Source of the DNA: Ascidia mentula
Lineage: Eukaryota; Chordata; Ascidiacea; Phlebobranchia; Ascidiidae
Reading direction: 5' to 3'
NCBI GenBank assembly: GCA_947561715.1
Contig: OX387199.1
Span: 11,723,001 to 11,787,000 of the forward strand
Length of the DNA: 64,000 nucleotides
Made by a program: the position numbers and the translations under genes. How positions within the stretch are numbered: the first letter of the stretch is position 1; every line of letters starts with the position of its first letter. The notes under the pieces were generated by a model. That model made no database searches and was not told the DNA's origin. It saw only the letters and a program-made list of their open reading frames with translations. This document shows positions 3,501 through 15,657 of this stretch, one piece after another.

Positions 3501-6500
3501 GAGATACAACAGTTTATTGAACATTCTTTACAAACAGCGCAAATAGCAGTGTATTTCAAAGTACCCTCAATTGCAATAAATTTGCAATCGAAAAGCACAT
3601 TTGAGTCTCTCTATAACAGGCTTTGCAATGATTTACCTCTTTGGCAACCAATCTTTTCCTCCCATAGCAACACTGCTTTGTTTAGAAATTCTAAAAACTT
3701 ACAAGTTGATTTGGACGAACAGGATGTTACAGATTCAGACATGTTTTTTACTTTTGAGTCAAAGTAAGTTTTTTTTATGCCCACATGCACTTTAGATTGT
3801 AGTGTTATTAAGATGTTATCACCGGTTTTGCCAACAAACTTAACAAATCCATGAATTATCCAAACATAAATAAACAACAATGTAAACTTTGTTGCCTTGC
3901 CTGCATCTCGCTAAATATAAACTTTGTTTAAAAAAAACAGTGTACTGGCAATTTAATTAAAAAAAGTTCAATAGGAGTTCATTTAAAAATGTGAATATGA
4001 ATTTTCAATGTCTTGTAGTGATTACTTCTATTTGTGGTTGCAATAGAAATTTTCAATATTTTGTATCTAGTTAAATGCATTTTGTTTACTGTTTGTAGCC
4101 ATGGTTCTCAGTTTGTTTCTGATGATGAGGATGAAATAACAGCAGATGACTCTTCAATGCACAATAAATCTTTCAGTCACAGCAAGAGTATGCTTTCAAT
4201 TGTGCTTGATATTGGGTCTGGTAAAGTGGCAATTAATTGTAATAATTCAAATGAAACTGACCCAACTACAAACTGCTTACTGTTAGAGGTAAACTATTCT
4301 GCTATTAAAGTTTTAAGTACAGATAAATCCTGTGAATTCGGTTGATTGGAATTCAATTTGTCTAAGAGATTTGTCAGGATTGTGCAAAGACATTTGTTGC
4401 AAACCTCATTTTGCGTGATTAGTAAGATATTGGAAAAATCATCTTAATTCGACATAGCTGAGACATCTGTGTAACTTAAAGATCCAAAAGACCTTTGCAA
4501 GTGTGTTTGTAACTTTATGCACTGATCACCACAGAAGCATTCTGTGATAAACATAACAATGACATGTGATACTATACAAGCAGAATCAGGCAGTTGTTAT
4601 TACAATCTGTTATGCATATACATGTAACTGATATGTGGTTAGGTATGTGGGTGCACAGTTGAAGCAGACAAATTCTTGAAAAAATTGCAAATCATTTGTA
4701 CCTCCAGTTTCGTTGGAAATAGGCCAATTTCCAGATTAACCAAATTATAAATACACCAATTTTACTGTAATAAAACTTTTAAATCTCTTTTTTTGTACAG
4801 TTTATCATTCCTATACATTATCTTTTGTTGGTTTTATTTGATTTATGTATATCACAATTACTAAGAATATTATTAAACTTTTAAATTTGGACATGTTTAA
4901 GCTTTAGCCTAGAGATTGTTATGTTCATATGGGTGCCTTACATGTTTGGCACAAATGAATTTATTTGTAATATTATTACATATTTTAGGTTGTTGACAGT
5001 AAATTGTGCACAGTTTTACAATATCATGGAAATGAAAAGCTAGACTATGTTTCCTTCCATGCAAAAGAAATTTGTATACATCAAAAAGTAAGCACCCTTG
5101 TTTTAGCTACAGCACCCTGGCTTTTATACTATTAAAGGGGTATGTTAAAATATTTCGAAACCAATCTAAAATATGCAAATGTATTATATAGTTAATTAAG
5201 GGTTAAGGTCATTAAAACTCACGAGACAAATAGAAAAATTGGCCACAATTATACTTACTTTTGTTAACACTGAAAACTGAAAATAGGTTTTGACCATCAG
5301 GTATCATGAGTTTAGTATTCATGTTTTAGCTTGCTTCTGAGATGAAAGACCTGAACTCCCTTCTTGAAAATGAAATAACGTCTTCATTTGAGTTAATTGT
5401 TGCACCATCTACAAGTAACATTACCATTTTTTGTGTTTTCAATGTACATTTCAAAGTCTTTTGTGTAACTTATTGTAGGTGGAAACAAACAAGACAACAT
5501 GCTAACATTAGCTTTAAGAATTGACATGGAAAGTAAGCAAGCCCTCAACCAATGTTTATTTTCATGTTTAATTTCACAAGCATCAATTAAGCATACGTTC
5601 GTTCCTTCTGGTGAATCTTGGTTTGAGCAGGTATTCATGATCGCTTGTAAAATAGCACGAATGTAAAATAAAACTACTAAACTGTGTCATATACTTTTAG
5701 TTGTTGCATTTTTTTGATGTTTCTGACACTCCAATAATGGGATATGAACTACCATCAGTTTTGACTGAAACCCATCTTCATGTTCAAAATTCTGCCATCT
5801 GCTACAAACCAAAATTTATGTCTCCACCTCTGTTGGCTGTGGTTACTATTCAATCTCTATCCCTCTCCTCAAATGTAGTAGCATTTTCACCACATTCCAT
5901 ACTGCAAGTAGTCATTGACAACATGGCAGTATATATTTGTAACAGGTCTTTTTTGTTTATTTAAATAACAGAAAGTATTTGAGTGCATCAATTTGTGTTT
6001 TCATCATTGCATTTTAGTGCTTTAGATGGAAATGGGGTGTTTGTACCAGTGCTAGATGTAAATGTACTGGAGATTGCATTGAAACTTTGCAAGCAAAATC
6101 AGACCAACATAGACCAAACTGGTAAGACTTCGGTGGTAATATTCATTCCTATTAACCCTGTATTTAAATCCTAATGGAAATTTAAGTCTAAATACATTTT
6201 TATTCTGAACAAAAACTAACTTTTCAAGTATTTTATGCCAGTGAAAAAGGTTTTGAATGTGCCTAATGTAAAGTTACAGCTTGTGTCTGCACCTAAACAA
6301 CTGACTTCTTCGGCCCCAAATAATCCAACTTATGAAACAAACCTATCACATTTTTTACAAATTATTTTTTTAAATTTACCCAGAACCAGTTAAATTCCAA
6401 CTACCAGTTGTGGACTTAACAATTTCCAACAATGAAGTAAATCTTCAAACTTGTGCTGATTCCTTGGCAGTGCTTGGAAGATTAATAACATATATGTCAA

Positions 6501-7182: not shown

Positions 7183-10100
7183 GTAAGTGATTGTGTATTA
7201 AGAGGGCTTTGTTATTAATAAAGTTTTATTCTACTTTATATATTTACTTGCATACAAGGCAAACCTTGACATTTAAAGTTTTTTCAAAAATTGAAAAAGT
7301 GCTGAAGCCAAGGGTGGAATTCATAAACCCCGATGAAGGGTCAGATTAGTTGATCCGATTCAGTTTTCATTGATCCATGTTCATGATCAGAATGACGCGT
7401 TTTGATCCATGAAGTTGATCCACCCCTTGAATTTAGCATTTAAAATGTAAAAGTGAGTGGTTAACAAAGGACAGCAACATTTACCAACCAAATTAGTCTG
7501 ACTTCCTTGTTTCCCTTATGTTCCATCTTTCAGCAAAAACTCAGACCACTACCCAGCCTGCGTAAAAAAGCTACCGCTGTCAATACAAATCGCCACAGAG
7601 ACCAGTAACCATACTTCCTGTCGAAGTAGTGCAGTTTGTTGTCTGCACAATCACTGAACCGTAAAAAATATGATACAAATTCGTGTTGTATCATGAAACC
7701 CCGATTAAAACTGTGGTTGATTCAGGATCAGCTATTCTGGGTTTATGAATTAACTGATCAGGGTTTATGAATTCCATGCTAAGAGTCATTATCCACAAAT
7801 AGTGGACTCAGACACCACAACTCATCCCAAGTAAAAACTTAAACCAGCAGACAGAGATGTTTTTAAACACTGGAATATAAAAACAGTTATGTGATCTCAT
7901 TCTTCTTTCAAACCAATATAGCACCAGTTTCCATATAATTAGTGGTAAATACATAGATTAGAAAATTATATTTGTTGATGTAGTTAATGATTTGAGGTTG
8001 TTGTTACTTTATCAAATCTTTGGGTAGTTTTATCTGTTTATGTCTTTTTAAACATTTTGTGTGTAGTGCAAATAAAGTTTCTACATTTTGCAAATCTGAC
8101 CTGCATGAAGAAACTTTCCTTTTTAACAAGGTACTATGTTTGTTGTTGTTTTTTGAAGATTTAGGTTTGCGCTTGTATGCTTTGCCTGCATTTTCTTAAT
8201 ATTCAAAGTAATATAAGACATTTTGATGTAAGTCGCATTGGAAGATTGTGTTCCATGTCCAACCTAAATTCATCAGTTTAACTTATGTTTAAAATTTGTA
8301 TGGTTTAGTTGCTAGCAATGATACTGTTTTTATCAGAATCTGTTGAATACCAACAACTTATTTCACCTTGCTGACTTGGAGACTTTTTATACTTGCATAT
8401 TTGTGCAGTAATTACAAACATTGTTACAATTTATTTTAGGCTGGTGATAACTCAAGTGTTGATGAGTTTTGTGTTGTTGTTGATTCTGAACTGGATTGCT
8501 ACAATCTTGATAGTGAAAACCCAGTGGTGGAGTATTTGGTTAAATCCAATTGTATCAAATCTCCTCTCACAAATTACTTTCTTCCTGTGCTTGGTAAAGT
8601 TGACCAGCTTCAGTCTCCGGAACGGTTTCCAGTACCAATGTACAAATATACAATAAAAGAACTTTCTTGCAAGTGGTCACTTTTTGGAGGAAACGATTTT
8701 TATCAAAAACAATCCACTAGTAGCCCATCATCAAAAAAGCACTTGAAATTTCAAGACTATTACTCCCAATGCAAACCAAGGCAGCATCACAGAGAAAGGG
8801 ACTATTCTCAACTATTGGAGATTAAACTATTGAAGGTTGTGCACACTATTTCATGTTTTGAGTTAACAACTGTACAAACTCACTATTTTTAGATCCGATT
8901 TCGCCATGAGATTTACCATCCCAGTGAAAATTTGTCAGTTAGAACAGTTCTTATTGTTCCTGAGTTTGAAGCATGTGATCGTTTGGAGTCTTCTCAGATA
9001 AATAAAATGCTGTATGGTTTTCACAATCAATCCAGCCCAAAGCAATCCCATTCAAATATGCTTTTGGTAAAAGCAATACACACTCTTCCCGAATCAAATG
9101 CTAAAATTTCTGAATGTCGTTTGTTTGTGTCTTTGCAACCTCTTCGAATAAATATTGACCAAGATACATTGGAATTTTTGACAAGTTTCTTTGAAACAGT
9201 GAACAAGCATTTCCAGGATCATCTATGTTCTGGGCCGCATGATGAATACTTTTTTCTAAGCGAACATAGTCAAAGCAATGGTAATTTTGTCAAATTTTTG
9301 TTTCAACTTTTTTTAATCGTCAAGCCTTTACTTATGCAGCCGAAGGCAATCAAGGAAATGCAAAAATTTTTTTCAAGGAAATTGTGTTTTCACCAAGTGT
9401 ACCCATTCGTTTGGATTACAATGGAAAGCATGTTGATATTGAACAAGTCAGTATATAAATTTTACACACACTGTTATACAGTGCTTGCCATGGCTTATAA
9501 GATCACAAAGCTCCTACTATTTTAATTTAAGGGAACAATTACTGGGTTGTTGAAAGGACTTGGTCAGCTGCATTGTTCTCGGTTGACACTCCGCAAAATA
9601 GTTTACCGTCATGGAATACTTGGTGTGGACAGAATGCTAAATTTTGTCTTGAGTGAATGGACTGAAGACATCTTAAAAAATCAAATTCCTTCAATTTTGG
9701 GTGGTGTTGGTCCTTTGCACTCCTTTGTTCAGTTCTTTCAAGGGGTTCATGATTTAATTTGGTTTCCTGTCGAACAGTTCAAACGAGATGGGCGTATTAT
9801 TAAAGGTCTACAGAAAGGTTCAACTGCATTTGGTATGTAAATGTAGCTTTGTCAGTTTATAAATAAATCCTTACTAAAAATTGGATATTAATGTTTTTCA
9901 ACAATATGTATTTTTATTTAATATTTTGGTCAGGTACATCTACAACCACTGCTGCATTAGAACTGACAAACAGGTTTGTTTGTCTTATTCATGCTGCAGC
10001 TGAAACCACATTTAACATCGTATCCCCTGCAAGTTCAGCTGTGTAAGTTTATTAACACTATTAGTGTTTTGAACCATTTTATTATACTTAATCACTAATT

Positions 10101-10981
10101 CTGGTAATGTAACCCCAATTTGTCAATTGTTTTAGGAAAGCAAAAAGATACTCTTTACAGGCTACTGTAAGTAATACAAAACGAAGAAAACAACCTGTTG
10201 ATTTACGGGAAGGAATAAATAATGCATTAAACCTTGTTCATCATGGTGTTACAGATACAGCAGTTACTTTGGCCCGGGTTGCACATGAGGTATTACTCTA
10301 TCACACTGGCCCTTATTGGTGTTAACAGTGTTAACTCCATTACACTATTTTGGTGTAGATATTTAGGTATCTCTTTCTGGTGTGGTATAAGTGATTTTGA
10401 TCAAGTCATGTTTGTACAATTGGTACATGCAGAATAATTGTGCCCCACATTTAGGGAACACCCCTTTACTTTACAAGTATTCAATATGTTCAAGCAAATA
10501 GTAGTTTCAATCATGACCTTGTGAGTGACAAAAGAACAAGGCGAGGTTAATGGCAAATTATTTTCAGAATAACAAGGCTTCATAATAAACATTTCAAAAA
10601 TTGACCTGCAATTTCTAACTAAACATTATAAGGGGGGATTATTCATCTTGTGATGTGCTCTAATTAAAGTTATAGTTTAATTTCTTGTGAAAAATGAAAT
10701 TTGTTTTGAATTACTTGCTTTCCAAGTAAAACTAGATTCAATACATTGAATTTTGCCTAAATTTCTTTTTTTTAATTCAGAAATATTTTTAGGAACACAA
10801 TCAAAAAGGTTTGTCAGGTGCTCTTGGAGGCGTTCTTCGTCATATCCCTCCTACACTTGTAAGACCAGTAATAATAGCTTCTGAAGCAACATCCAATGTT
10901 TTAAGTGGAATGCGAAATCAAATCCTTCCAGATGCTCAAAGAGAAGACGAACTAAAATGGAGATCAAATGAATCAAGTTAA
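505..10981 (+). CDS. ATG2: Autophagy-related protein 2 (ATG2), 5'-partial, last 24 exons
   Basis: ATG2 is a rod-shaped bridge-like lipid-transfer protein that moves phospholipids from ER exit regions to the expanding phagophore, working with WIPI/Atg18 and ATG9, and also acts at lipid droplets. The 24 exons give about 1,572 codons ending in TAA at 10979-10981; vertebrate ATG2 has roughly 1,900-2,080 residues, so some 400 N-terminal residues, including the chorein-N lipid-entry domain, lie left of the window. Diagnostic segments are the FPIPDLR stretch (exon at 2630), TCADSLAVLGRLITYM (exon at 6384), the PVPMYKY...WSLFGGNDF block (8440) and the long conserved C-terminus. All junctions are GT-AG with consistent phase. 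The gene converges on LIN28, whose stop lies about 1.65 kb away. No frame breaks were seen. ATG2A and ATG2B cannot be distinguished; a single pre-duplication orthologue is expected. Confidence 0.96.
7315..7776. mobile_element. MITE with TGGAATTCATAAACCC inverted ends, in an ATG2 intron
   Basis: The 883-bp intron 7183-8066 contains a block of about 462 bp whose ends are near-perfect inverted copies (TGGAATTCATAAACCC on the left, GGGTTTATGAATTCCA on the right). It has no coding capacity, and the interior contains GATCAG/TTGATCC repeats close to the ends. I could not find a clear target duplication, so the superfamily is unassigned. Confidence 0.7.
8067..10981 (+). other. ATG2: ATG2 exon block B (CAD motif and C-terminal region)
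   Basis: Exons 8067-8130, 8440-8835, 8893-9280, 9340-9446, 9532-9832, 9934-10042, 10136-10289, 10793-10981. The exon at 8893 holds the Cys-Ala-Asp (ATG2_CAD) motif region, seen as FEACDRLES. The next exons carry the family signature IFFKEIVFSPSVPIRLDY and GLGQLHCSRLTLRKIVYRHG. The last four exons carry GGVGPLHSFVQFFQGVHDL, PVDLREGI and GMRNQILPDAQREDELKWRS, very close to vertebrate ATG2 C-termini that bind lipid droplets and ATG9. This block makes the gene assignment secure. Confidence 0.95.
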
Positions 10982-11381: not shown

Positions 11382-11984
11382 ACATGGCCCCTTGTAAACT
11401 ATTGACTGCTCTCACGATTCACAGCTTATATAAATATGTAAATTTTGTTGTGGACTGTTTTGGGATTATTATTTCAACAGTACGATTTGTGTGGAATAGC
11501 AATTATTGTGATCATTTTTGAGAACAGTATGATGTTAGTCCACGTTTAGCCCCCATATTACGGTCGAGTATTATTTCCTTTTCGACGATTAGGGTTCATA
11601 GCTACCTTTAAACAGTTTTGTTGACTAGAGAATTATGCAGGCCAGCTAAATTGGAAATGTTGCTTTGGTTACTGATCTATCTGAATCAGGCAAACTTGTG
11701 GCGAACAAAAACTTATTGTTTCCGACAGCAATATAACGTTTCACGAAAAAAATCAAACAATAAAATTTGCTTAAAAAAAGTTTTAAAATTTATTGTGGTA
11801 TTGCAAAACGTTTGTGCGTGATCAATAAACATACCTAAATACAAACATAGATTCTCTTGACCGAAATGTAAAAACAAGTAGGCTAATGCGGCGTCGGTCG
11901 CGAAAGTTGGCCTGTGGATATTGAAAGAAAACCTTGTCTTTCTTCACTGGCTGGTTGCGATTTTTCTGTTATTAATTTCGAATT

Positions 11985-12180
11985 TATTCACATTCCGAAC
12001 GACTTGAATTTTTTAAATTGTATAACATTAAGATAACTGGCATCGCAGCTACTTTTTCCCAACAAGTCGGAGGGAGATACAAAATACCAAGCTCCAGGTG
12101 TGGTTTGAATTTTGGACATAAGGAAGCACAGCGGTTAAGGGTTGCAATATTGTGACCATGACGCACAGGTGCGCGAGCAC
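11985..12180 (-). repeat. Old tRNA-derived SINE copy
   Basis: Read on the minus strand, this shares with the better copy at 42211 the segments TTCAAACCACACCTGGAGCTT (B-box end plus acceptor) and CTCCGACTTGTTGGGAAAAAGT (body). The promoter half is heavily diverged. Length and order match the other copy, which supports common SINE origin rather than a gene. Confidence 0.65.
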
Positions 12181-12561
12181 ATAACGTGCTAGACGACCTA
12201 CAGGTTTACGGAGGGGATTTGCTATTCAGACAAAATGTTATCGCTTTGCATGCTATAGGCCTACGATACGTAAATCGACAGGGCCTTTGCAGTGGCACGA
12301 AAAATCCGAAAGTGGTTGCAAAAAAAACAAAAAGCAGGCCTGACTCAAAATTCGGCGTGGTGTATTGGCGTAATGTAGAAAATTCACACCCTGAGAAAGC
12401 AATGTACAAGTTTACATCAAAAAAACATTTCCTGAGATAGTAGCAAAACGTTGCTTTGCGGACGCGAACAAGAGCAGGGTATGCATGATATACCATAATT
12501 ACATGAAGTATAACAGGATTGCATGATACACCAAAGCTGCAAAATAAGAGATACAAAAGAG

Positions 12562-12587
12562 GAGGTAGATATTTATTGTAGAGGTAG
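12562..12587 (-). promoter_or_regulatory. Two let-7 seed-match sites in the LIN28 3' UTR
   Basis: On the mRNA (minus) strand CTACCTC occurs twice, at 12587-12581 and 12568-12562; each is a perfect 7mer-m8 match to let-7 positions 2-8 (GAGGUAG). An AATAAA lies between them (12577-12572). The upstream site is therefore in the UTR whichever cleavage point is used; the downstream one sits where cleavage normally occurs and may be kept or lost. The promoter-proximal site also has upstream bases (TATAACTTCAAC) able to pair with the let-7 3' half. LIN28 as a let-7 target is established in animals; function here is inferred. Confidence 0.8.
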
Positions 12588-12633
12588 ACAGTTGAAGTTA
12601 TACTACTGCTATACTAATCGTTGTAAAGAAAGT

Positions 12634-13476
12634 TTAACAATCACATGGAGGTTTGTGGTTGTTAGGACAGATGGCAATTAAATGTTCAACTGATTCACAG
12701 CAATAACAACGTTTTGGTAAGGGCGGACACTTGCACTCTTTTGCATGATGACCAACTTCATTACAGTTGAAACACCTGTAGACAGAAATTACTTTACTTT
12801 TTTAATTCATGTCAATTGCAATAAATGCACTTTACCTGTCAGGTCTTCGCTTTCGTCCCGTGCACGTCACACCCTTCCTTCGCTTCGACCGTCGCTTTAT
12901 TCCAATGCAGTCTTCCCCATTGGGCCCACACACCAACGACGCCTCCCAACCGAGAGGGCTTTGTTTATACTCAATTTTTACCCTTTCACCTTCATATAAA
13001 CTACGATGCCTCGGCATTTGAATGACAGACTGCAAAAAACACAACGCTGAAAAGTTCTTATGAACGCAGATGATTGCAGTTATTTACCTGATGAACAAAA
13101 ACATCTCGTTGTTCGTTTCCTTGCTCGTGATGACAGGTATCAATCGTAACGAAGCCAAACCCTTTGTCAAACCATTTACAGTTCCCTTTACAAATTTAGG
13201 ACCATATGTCATTGCAAATCAAGACCAAAATACTTGCTTAAAACATTTACCAAGACCACTAAAATGTTTCTGGTTGTGTGTTACATCATCTTGATCTTCG
13301 AGCGGAGATTTTGCGGCACAGGAAGAACTTTGCCCGGGGTCTATTTTCTTCTCTAACAAAGCAAAAATGTGGAATAGGTTAAATGGTCAGAGCCGAGTTA
13401 ATACTATCCCAAATTGGCTGTATGCTATAATATTTTCGGAATTTTAAGAAGGTAATGTACCATCATCGTCTGACAT
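12634..13476 (-). CDS. LIN28: LIN28 RNA-binding protein, complete, five exons
   Basis: LIN28 binds the terminal loop of let-7 precursors, blocks their maturation and recruits a uridylyltransferase, and it binds many mRNAs; it controls developmental timing and pluripotency. Exons (minus): 13461-13476, 13251-13352, 13088-13185, 12836-13029, 12634-12775; these give 183 aa with matching phases. The cold-shock domain begins at GNCKWFDKGFGFV (RNP1) and DVFVHQ (RNP2), about residues 40-110, followed by an Arg/Lys-rich linker. Two CX2CX4HX4C knuckles have ligands C138, C141, H146, C151 and C160, C163, H168, C173, with the typical KECKCPPLPKRC spacer. The first exon codes only MSDDD plus one base. No alanine-rich N-terminus is present. 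Knuckle spacing and the DVFVHQ motif separate it from Y-box proteins, so confidence is high. Confidence 0.96.
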
Positions 13477-15657
13477 TGTTGATTCAGCTATGTCATCGTC
13501 TTTTCTCAAACGATGAAATTTCCTCCTACAAATGAACAATTCAAAATTATATTACGCCGATATTTATTTTTTAGGAATTTACACGCCACGTTGTTTTTGA
13601 ATGCCAAGCTGTTGATTAAATTTCTGCAAAAAACGTATTCTTACCTTTTTATGCGAACATCCCACACCAAAGCATCAAACAATAGCCTATCTTCTGGTTT
13701 TCTTCTACAGTTAAAAGTCGTGTTACCAATACATTGCAAAAGTGCAAACAATTGTTTAATTTGGTCTAACGTTAATGTTTAAAAAACAATAAAATAGGTG
13801 GATGACTATTCAAATTTTGGAATGGTACGTTTTATCAGAGCTTGTTTGACGATGTAGAGTCTTCATTTTATTGCCACCAGGGCTTGATTGACCACCAAGC
13901 AAAGCAAACACGTAAAGAGATTCATTGTTCATGTGGTGATATACAGTTTATTTGTTTGTTATGTTTTGATTTGCACATATATGGGGCATCGAAGCCAAAG
14001 GCGATTATGACATTCAAGAAATAAAAAGGATTTGGGAGATGGATCCGATACGAAGAGGGGTAGATCTAGCATTATGACGTTACTTGGCAAATAAAATCAC
14101 TTTTCTGCGGCTCCGTAAATAAATAAAGGACAAGAAAATCAAATGGAAAATGCTACTACACCGGGTCACAAAGTTTTTTCCAAACTTCATCCACGTAAAA
14201 GTCTGTGTAAAAGAGAAATCTGTGTGATTTTAATGATTAGGTGTAACAGGGCCACCACCTGTTATTTTTGTTTATAAATTTAACTTAAAATACTACACAA
14301 AATCGTAGCGTTAATATCTGCACAAATTTCCATGTTAGGCCGGGTCCACACTCTCGCTTTGCGCCGTGGATTCTTTGTTTTCTCTTTTACACAGACTTAT
14401 ACGTGGATCAAGTTTGGAAAAAACTTTGTGACCCGGTGTGAAAGTATCTTCCCAAGCACATAGGTATAAAATAAAGAAGCACTATGAGGCGTTTTACTAC
14501 CGGTGCAACATACATATATTGTTGCGTCTTGATGCGTTACATGGGTTCAAGTAAATATTTTTATAGATTTCACCACAATGAACTCACGGTTGTTTATTCG
14601 GAACAAACAAACTGCTGTCCACTTACGAACGAAAAAAGTATTTTGGTGGTGTGCAAAAGTAATGCAGGTTAACAAATAATTGTTTTAATGTTTGCTCTGC
14701 CTCTCGAGACCAGAAACTACTTCCAATAATATAACGGTCACAACACTGCTTGAAAACCTCAGTTTAACCCTTGCCTCGGTTTAAAAAGCTACAATTGTCA
14801 GACAAATGTGTGACATAATCATTGTACCAGGCTAACCCACACGGTCCCTAAAAACAATCACACACAAGTGTTTTTTTTACGAATTCAAACAATTGCCTCC
14901 AGTCTTACTGCGAACAATCAAGATGGAAAACTTTTGACTGACCTCAAGCCATATGTATAACACTGTTTTCAACCTAAGTGAACAGTGTTTTGTAAAAATT
15001 TTCCTACAGTAAAAGTCCTAGCGAATTGGGTTTCCCTATGCGACTGCAGTGCTAATATGTCGAGCAGGATCAAGCATCGACTTAAACTAAATAAATTGAT
15101 TAATAATGTTTATCAATACTTCACTTACCAGCAAAAACCAACTAAGTAGCGAAACTCGGTGAACCTTACTGTAGTGACCGTCAGCTGGCAAACAAAATCG
15201 CCGCCCCGTTCTGTCCGCGACCTACTTTCTGCCTTTCTCTTTTTTTGCTTCCAGCTAAGAACATTCCCAATGGCTGGCCCTGCACCCAACGGCTGTAACT
15301 TAGTAATTCAGTGTTTCTGTTTTATGATTACTGGACAATTTTACAATAAGTTGTTTTGTTCGCTAATACAATTATTGAAAATTGAGTTTAGGCAAACAGA
15401 GATGGTATTACTAACTATAACAGTTTACAAAACAATGTTGTATTGAAATATTGCGAATAGAAAAATATGACAAACAAATACAAAGTAAGATCACTTGGGA
15501 ATTGAAAAACAAATGATTACAAACAGACAGTTACATGTTGGTAAAATCTAATAGAAAACTACAAGCACCTGCTGCTGGAAATGTGTTAGTTTTATATCCA
15601 GCATCTATAATCACAATTTACAAGTGTGTTGGCATCCAGTAATAAAGTGCAACTGAC
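13477..15657. other. LIN28 5' leader and LIN28-afadin intergenic stretch
   Basis: This contains the LIN28 leader (with a two-codon upstream ORF, ATG ACA TAG, at 13496-13488 on the minus strand), a MITE at 14158-14438, AT-rich sequence without recognised genes, and the afadin 3' UTR. Both neighbours are on the minus strand, so the LIN28 promoter should lie here; I see no convincing TATA box or CpG-rich block. Open frames at 13513, 13842, 14484 and 15159 have no supporting features. Confidence 0.5.
14158..14438. mobile_element. Young-looking MITE with about 61-bp terminal inverted repeats
   Basis: The left arm starts ACACCGGGTCACAAAG and runs to about 14218. The right arm is its reverse complement over about 61 bp with only two visible mismatches. 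The total is 281 bp with no coding capacity. The interior holds a second motif (GGCCGGGTCCACACT at about 14339) resembling another element end, so it may be composite. The high arm identity suggests recent insertion. Confidence 0.8.

Follow-up and report, generated by a model that had tools for sequence, protein, structure and literature searches.

The LIN28 gene of the solitary ascidian Ascidia mentula very likely carries two genuine let-7 sites of the 7mer-m8 type, as judged from the DNA sequence. Within a short 3′ UTR, these most probably act as canonical sites for the let-7 family, as part of a LIN28/let-7 loop and with both sites kept in the mRNA. In the window, by which we mean the whole 64,000-nt stretch of DNA that was analysed, the minus strand carries CTACCTC at positions 12581–12587 (site 1, 46 nt past the stop codon) and 12562–12568 (site 2, 65 nt past the stop codon), the two copies lying 19 nt apart and being spanned by 26 bases. 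The preliminary description had reported this motif twice in 26 bases of the mRNA strand with AATAAA in between, and that strand does read CTACCTC at 12587–12581, AATAAA at 12577–12572 and CTACCTC again at 12568–12562. Both copies match nt 2–8 of let-7 perfectly, in the sense orientation of a 3′ UTR whose transcription to that point we infer. The base next to the heptamer is T in one copy and C in the other, not A, and neither LIN28 site is therefore an 8mer.

The naming of the host gene as LIN28 in the same description was confirmed by its predicted protein. Five coding parts, joined at GT/AG borders placed by eye on the minus strand between ~13,480 and 12,560, yield a product of 183 residues. 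The first part (13461–13476) runs from the ATG taken at 13476 to a GT donor at 13460, likewise assigned by eye; the frame is open upstream of this ATG, and the N-terminus of the model is provisional. Exon 2 (13251–13352, AG/GT borders) is followed by exons 3 (13088–13185) and 4 (12836–13029), with the cold-shock domain split between them, its first half in exon 3 and its second half, together with a basic linker, in exon 4, and by the last coding exon (12634–12775), which encodes two CCHC zinc knuckles and ends with the stop codon TAA at 12636–12634. Pfam recognized the cold-shock domain across the joined exons (residues 40–105) and one CCHC knuckle (residues 137–152), and alignment to chains that the PDB names lin-28 homolog A (residues 17–175, 2e-36) spans both knuckles. 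The predicted protein thus displays the arrangement that defines LIN28, in which two CCHC zinc knuckles follow a cold-shock domain, and on this basis the minus-strand gene is LIN28.

A LIN28 query against the whole genome (195.84 Mb in 79 contigs, the window lying on contig C52) returned three matches, all of them exons of this same gene, and found no second copy. The genome holds six further places with a cold-shock domain, none of which was matched by the query. As the query matched nowhere else in the genome, a second LIN28 copy was set aside, and a search for LIN28 relatives in viral contigs retrieved none. The convergent neighbour of LIN28 is the autophagy gene ATG2 (~9540–10981, plus strand; Pfam ATG2_CAD, 9.6e-39), whose stop codon, placed by eye, lies ~1.6 kb from the let-7 sites. 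Upstream of the LIN28 coding exons, two 74-nt arms (14145–14218 and 14379–14452), separated by 160 nt and complementary at 91%, form an inverted repeat that resembles a small transposon-like element.

The occurrence of the heptamer was assessed with an order-2 Markov model built on the window, under which CTACCTC arises with a probability of 1.67e-5 per position and a pair ≤40 nt apart in the first 100 nt past the stop codon with a probability of ~1e-6. Among 20,000 simulated stretches of 600 nt, 218 contained at least one copy and two contained two, with no instance of two copies ≤40 nt apart. On both strands of the window, six copies were observed against 1.87 expected, a number reached by none of 100 shuffles. 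A survey of both strands of 51 sequences (50 genome loci, which are a non-random sample, plus the window; in all 300,126 bases, overlaps included) uncovered two distinct CTACCTC pairs ≤60 nt apart, namely the LIN28 pair and another that lies antisense to a let-7 gene. The earlier reading of the two heptamers as let-7 seed matches is sustained by a pair that exceeds chance and by a genome that encodes let-7. Tandem duplication was considered as the origin of the pair and rejected, the copies around the matches having, by eye, only TCTACCTC in common.

The surroundings of the sites were also evaluated. Site 2 is predicted to be more open than 96%, and site 1 more open than 79%, of the 7-mers in the unspliced 12400–12800 stretch, which includes some intron. 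The let-7 3′ part paired with either LIN28 site no better than with shuffled flanks (12 comparisons, in which 12–95% of 500 shuffles did equally well), and additional 3′ pairing was accordingly discarded as a property of these sites. As cited in PMC2374997, repression by let-7 pairs is reported to be strongest at distances of 13–35 nt, a range that PMC4081082 applies as a rule; the former paper also counts distances under ~22 as overlapping and describes strongly overlapping sites as less repressed. At 19 nt, the full 22-nt footprints of let-7 on LIN28 overlap slightly, and the spacing falls near the lower edge of the 13–35 range. Among the matches listed from the openly licensed literature, titles and the opening parts of abstracts gave no description of let-7 sites in a tunicate LIN28.

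The same genome provides the cognate microRNAs. The Rfam let-7 model yielded five matches, one of them above the gathering score, and a seed scan of both let-7 loci brought the cluster on contig C67 to five hairpins, for a set of six: five at C67:4.2505–4.2526 Mb and one at C67:14.92 Mb. The latter adjoins a miR-125 hairpin, the distance from seed to seed being 239 nt. All six hairpins carry GAGGTAG, the seed that matches the LIN28 sites, and the few other GAGGTAG occurrences at these loci sit outside hairpins of their own. GGAG, the element bound by the LIN28 knuckles, is present in the loop region of three of the six (cluster locus L012, positions 3961, 4822 and 6067) and missing from two cluster members (L012:4318 and 5472) and from the miR-125-linked let-7 (locus L013). 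This distribution, with half of the hairpins bearing the double-negative-loop element, fits the mutual repression of LIN28 and let-7 invoked in the preliminary description, and suggests that LIN28-sensitive and LIN28-resistant let-7 copies may coexist within one genome. A second TGAGGTAG, at L012:3938, precedes the let-7 at 3961 by 23 nt and sits on the 5′ side of that hairpin. A similar let-7 set, with four members on one scaffold and one elsewhere, is reported for Halocynthia (PMC5399378), and PMC2884542 names let-7 members among the miRNAs most highly expressed in adult Ciona.

The TRIM71/LIN41 gene of this genome, whose best match is a TRIM71 chain (2e-127), offers a weak internal parallel. 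CTACCTC is found three times in sense and never in antisense within 1,650 nt past its stop codon, a length picked after the sites had been seen; the sense copies lie at positions 3662, 5007 and 5169 of locus L041, that is, 4, 1,349 and 1,511 nt past the stop. We consider the parallel weak because of this post hoc length, because the first site is only 4 nt past the stop codon, and because an AATAAA at L041:4620 precedes the second and third copies. MicroRNA sites very close to a stop codon, such as that first one, tend to work poorly. The last copy starts 11 nt past another AATAAA (L041:5153–5158), in a placement that recalls LIN28 site 2. Sense copies were evident in two of eight NHL-gene stretches (L040 and L041). 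Ascidian LIN28 resembles lin-41/TRIM71, including the TRIM71 of this genome, in having sense let-7 matches past the stop codon; those of this TRIM71 are spread out, whereas those of LIN28 are paired.

The hexamer between the LIN28 sites, AATAAA at 12572–12577 on the minus strand, looks like a working proximal poly(A) signal. Relative to the 206 AATAAA of the window, its downstream sequence ranks in the top 5.3% for T, the top 3.9% for G+T and the top 3.4% for GU-type words, whereas its best 15-nt windows downstream place it no higher than the top 16% and 26%. A search for 11 poly(A) hexamers between the LIN28 stop codon and 12577 yielded none. The placement of AATAAA between the sites is unremarkable by itself, because the hexamer is common in the window and expected near a stop codon. 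According to an animal poly(A) survey (PMC4360255), cleavage occurs ~15 bases past the hexamer, a figure derived from human, and AAUAAA is present at 48.4% of 287 Ciona sites. Such a distance would put LIN28 cleavage near 12557–12553, beyond site 2, and the likeliest cleavage region would be 12552–12558, ~15–19 nt past AATAAA. Site 2 occupies positions +4 to +10 after the hexamer, and most LIN28 transcripts should therefore retain both let-7 sites.

This geometry bears directly on the switch that the preliminary description had proposed, in which the choice of cleavage point after AATAAA 12577 would strip site 2 from some LIN28 mRNAs and so tune their repression. Site 2 does lie directly past the hexamer and near the cleavage zone, but it would be lost only by unusually early cleavage, at ≤9 nt rather than the ~15 nt given for animals in PMC4360255, and the T-rich tract starts only past site 2; we therefore did not retain the proposal, which appears very unlikely. 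Site 2 could instead be a by-product of a pyrimidine tract, serving either as a poly(A) downstream element or as a 3′ splice site for an alternative last exon (TTTTGCAG, with its end at 12537), with site 1 alone answering to let-7. Pyrimidines dominate the sequence between site 2 and 12537, the end of which is acceptor-like, and the frame past 12537 stays open to 12206. That exon was nevertheless rejected, since its open frame has no Pfam family above the cut-off (best E 0.13); nothing points to splicing at 12537, and a second exact heptamer within 19 nt is improbable by composition, all of which makes the by-product explanation decidedly unlikely. The failure of let-7 3′ pairing to surpass shuffled flanks would suit a pair that is fortuitous and functionless, an origin that we regard as very unlikely for so rare a configuration (~1e-6) in the best-known partner gene of let-7.

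A different role for AATAAA 12577 would be to divide let-7 from miR-125/lin-4 control, rather than to split the let-7 pair. Cleavage after this hexamer would produce an mRNA with let-7 sites only, and use of AATACA (12361–12366), a candidate weak distal signal, would produce a longer one that also carries candidate miR-125/lin-4 matches at 12436 and 12395 and answers to both microRNAs. Those matches are CTCAGG (12431–12436, nt 3–8) and the 7mer-m8 CTCAGGG (12389–12395, 238 nt past the stop codon), all on the minus strand. In favour of this tandem poly(A) arrangement, a scan of the 651 nt past the LIN28 stop codon with 43 conserved seeds returned let-7 twice, miR-125 once and no other family; notably, all three hits fall to the two classic timer miRNAs. 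Of 5,000 order-1 simulated copies of the downstream sequence, 25 contained CTCAGGG and four contained two CTCAGG. AATACA ranks in the top 1–3% of the 98 AATACA of the window for downstream T richness, with a U-rich tract behind it (12320–12333), and the genome places a miR-125 hairpin beside let-7. The order itself, let-7 and then lin-4, recurs in Elegans-group lin-28 (PMC13286352). Against it, three hits are ordinary in number, the 43 seeds averaging 2.04 per window segment, and the antisense strand of the scanned stretch gives six, from other families; the miR-125 heptamer occurs in 38 of 2,534 window segments of equal size, counted with overlaps and with the LIN28 site included. AATACA is a rare poly(A) signal, and the sole other AATAAA found (11983–11988, minus strand) has a poor downstream context and lies beyond a short dispersed repeat copy (12046–12109, minus strand) that recurs at 75–86% identity in at least 43 other genome places, most of them matching over those positions. 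We hold the tandem arrangement to be tentative and, on balance, rather unlikely, and we grade the division of microRNA control that it would bring about just as cautiously. If true, the choice of poly(A) site would determine by which of two timer microRNAs, linked in the genome, LIN28 expression can be shut off.

We favour canonical let-7 sites because of the LIN28 identity of the gene, the occurrence of the sites beyond chance, the six GAGGTAG hairpins, a spacing of 19 nt within the 13–35 range and the predicted openness of the sites, joined by the weak TRIM71 parallel and the high adult expression of let-7 members in Ciona. The absence of an 8mer, 3′ pairing at the level of shuffles, the single let-7 match out of five that passes the Rfam gathering score, the slight footprint overlap and the many Caenorhabditis species with let-7 but no let-7 site in lin-28 count against this reading. 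Under canonical let-7 control, let-7 RNAs, made later in life, would load into Argonaute, bind both LIN28 sites and lower LIN28, which would in turn restrain the maturation of those let-7 precursors that have the GGAG loop element. AATAAA 12577 would act as the normal proximal poly(A) signal, with cleavage ~15–19 nt on that leaves both sites in the mRNA and site 2 only ~5–9 nt from the tail. In this scheme, expression, cleavage position, repression and joint action of the sites are the components that we infer.

The partnership between LIN28 and let-7 is already known from worms and vertebrates, and the ascidian pair is very likely a further case of this known kind. In the Elegans group of Caenorhabditis, a lin-4 2–8 match comes after the let-7 site of lin-28, with an extra 3–8 site in all species but C. 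elegans; beyond the Elegans and Japonica groups, lin-28 has no let-7 site in most species (PMC13286352). As that paper reports, many Caenorhabditis lack the site though their genomes have let-7, and the loop is not universal. Ascidian LIN28 shares with the Caenorhabditis gene the order of let-7 first and, in the ascidian, candidate lin-4 type matches after, but carries its let-7 sites as a pair spaced by 19 nt and its 3–8 match ahead of the 2–8 match; only in the ascidian does a canonical AATAAA stand ahead of both lin-4 type matches. The mammalian double-negative loop, as outlined in PMC3164678, likewise combines a let-7 site in the LIN28 3′ UTR with restraint of let-7 by LIN28; the ascidian differs from mammals in its single LIN28 gene and in a predicted 3′ UTR that is very short. 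Taken together, the let-7 pair, the GGAG-bearing let-7 hairpins and the let-7-then-lin-4 order would argue for both arms of the loop in early chordates. If the distal sites are transcribed, LIN28 could show whether poly(A) choice picks between timer microRNAs at ascidian metamorphosis.
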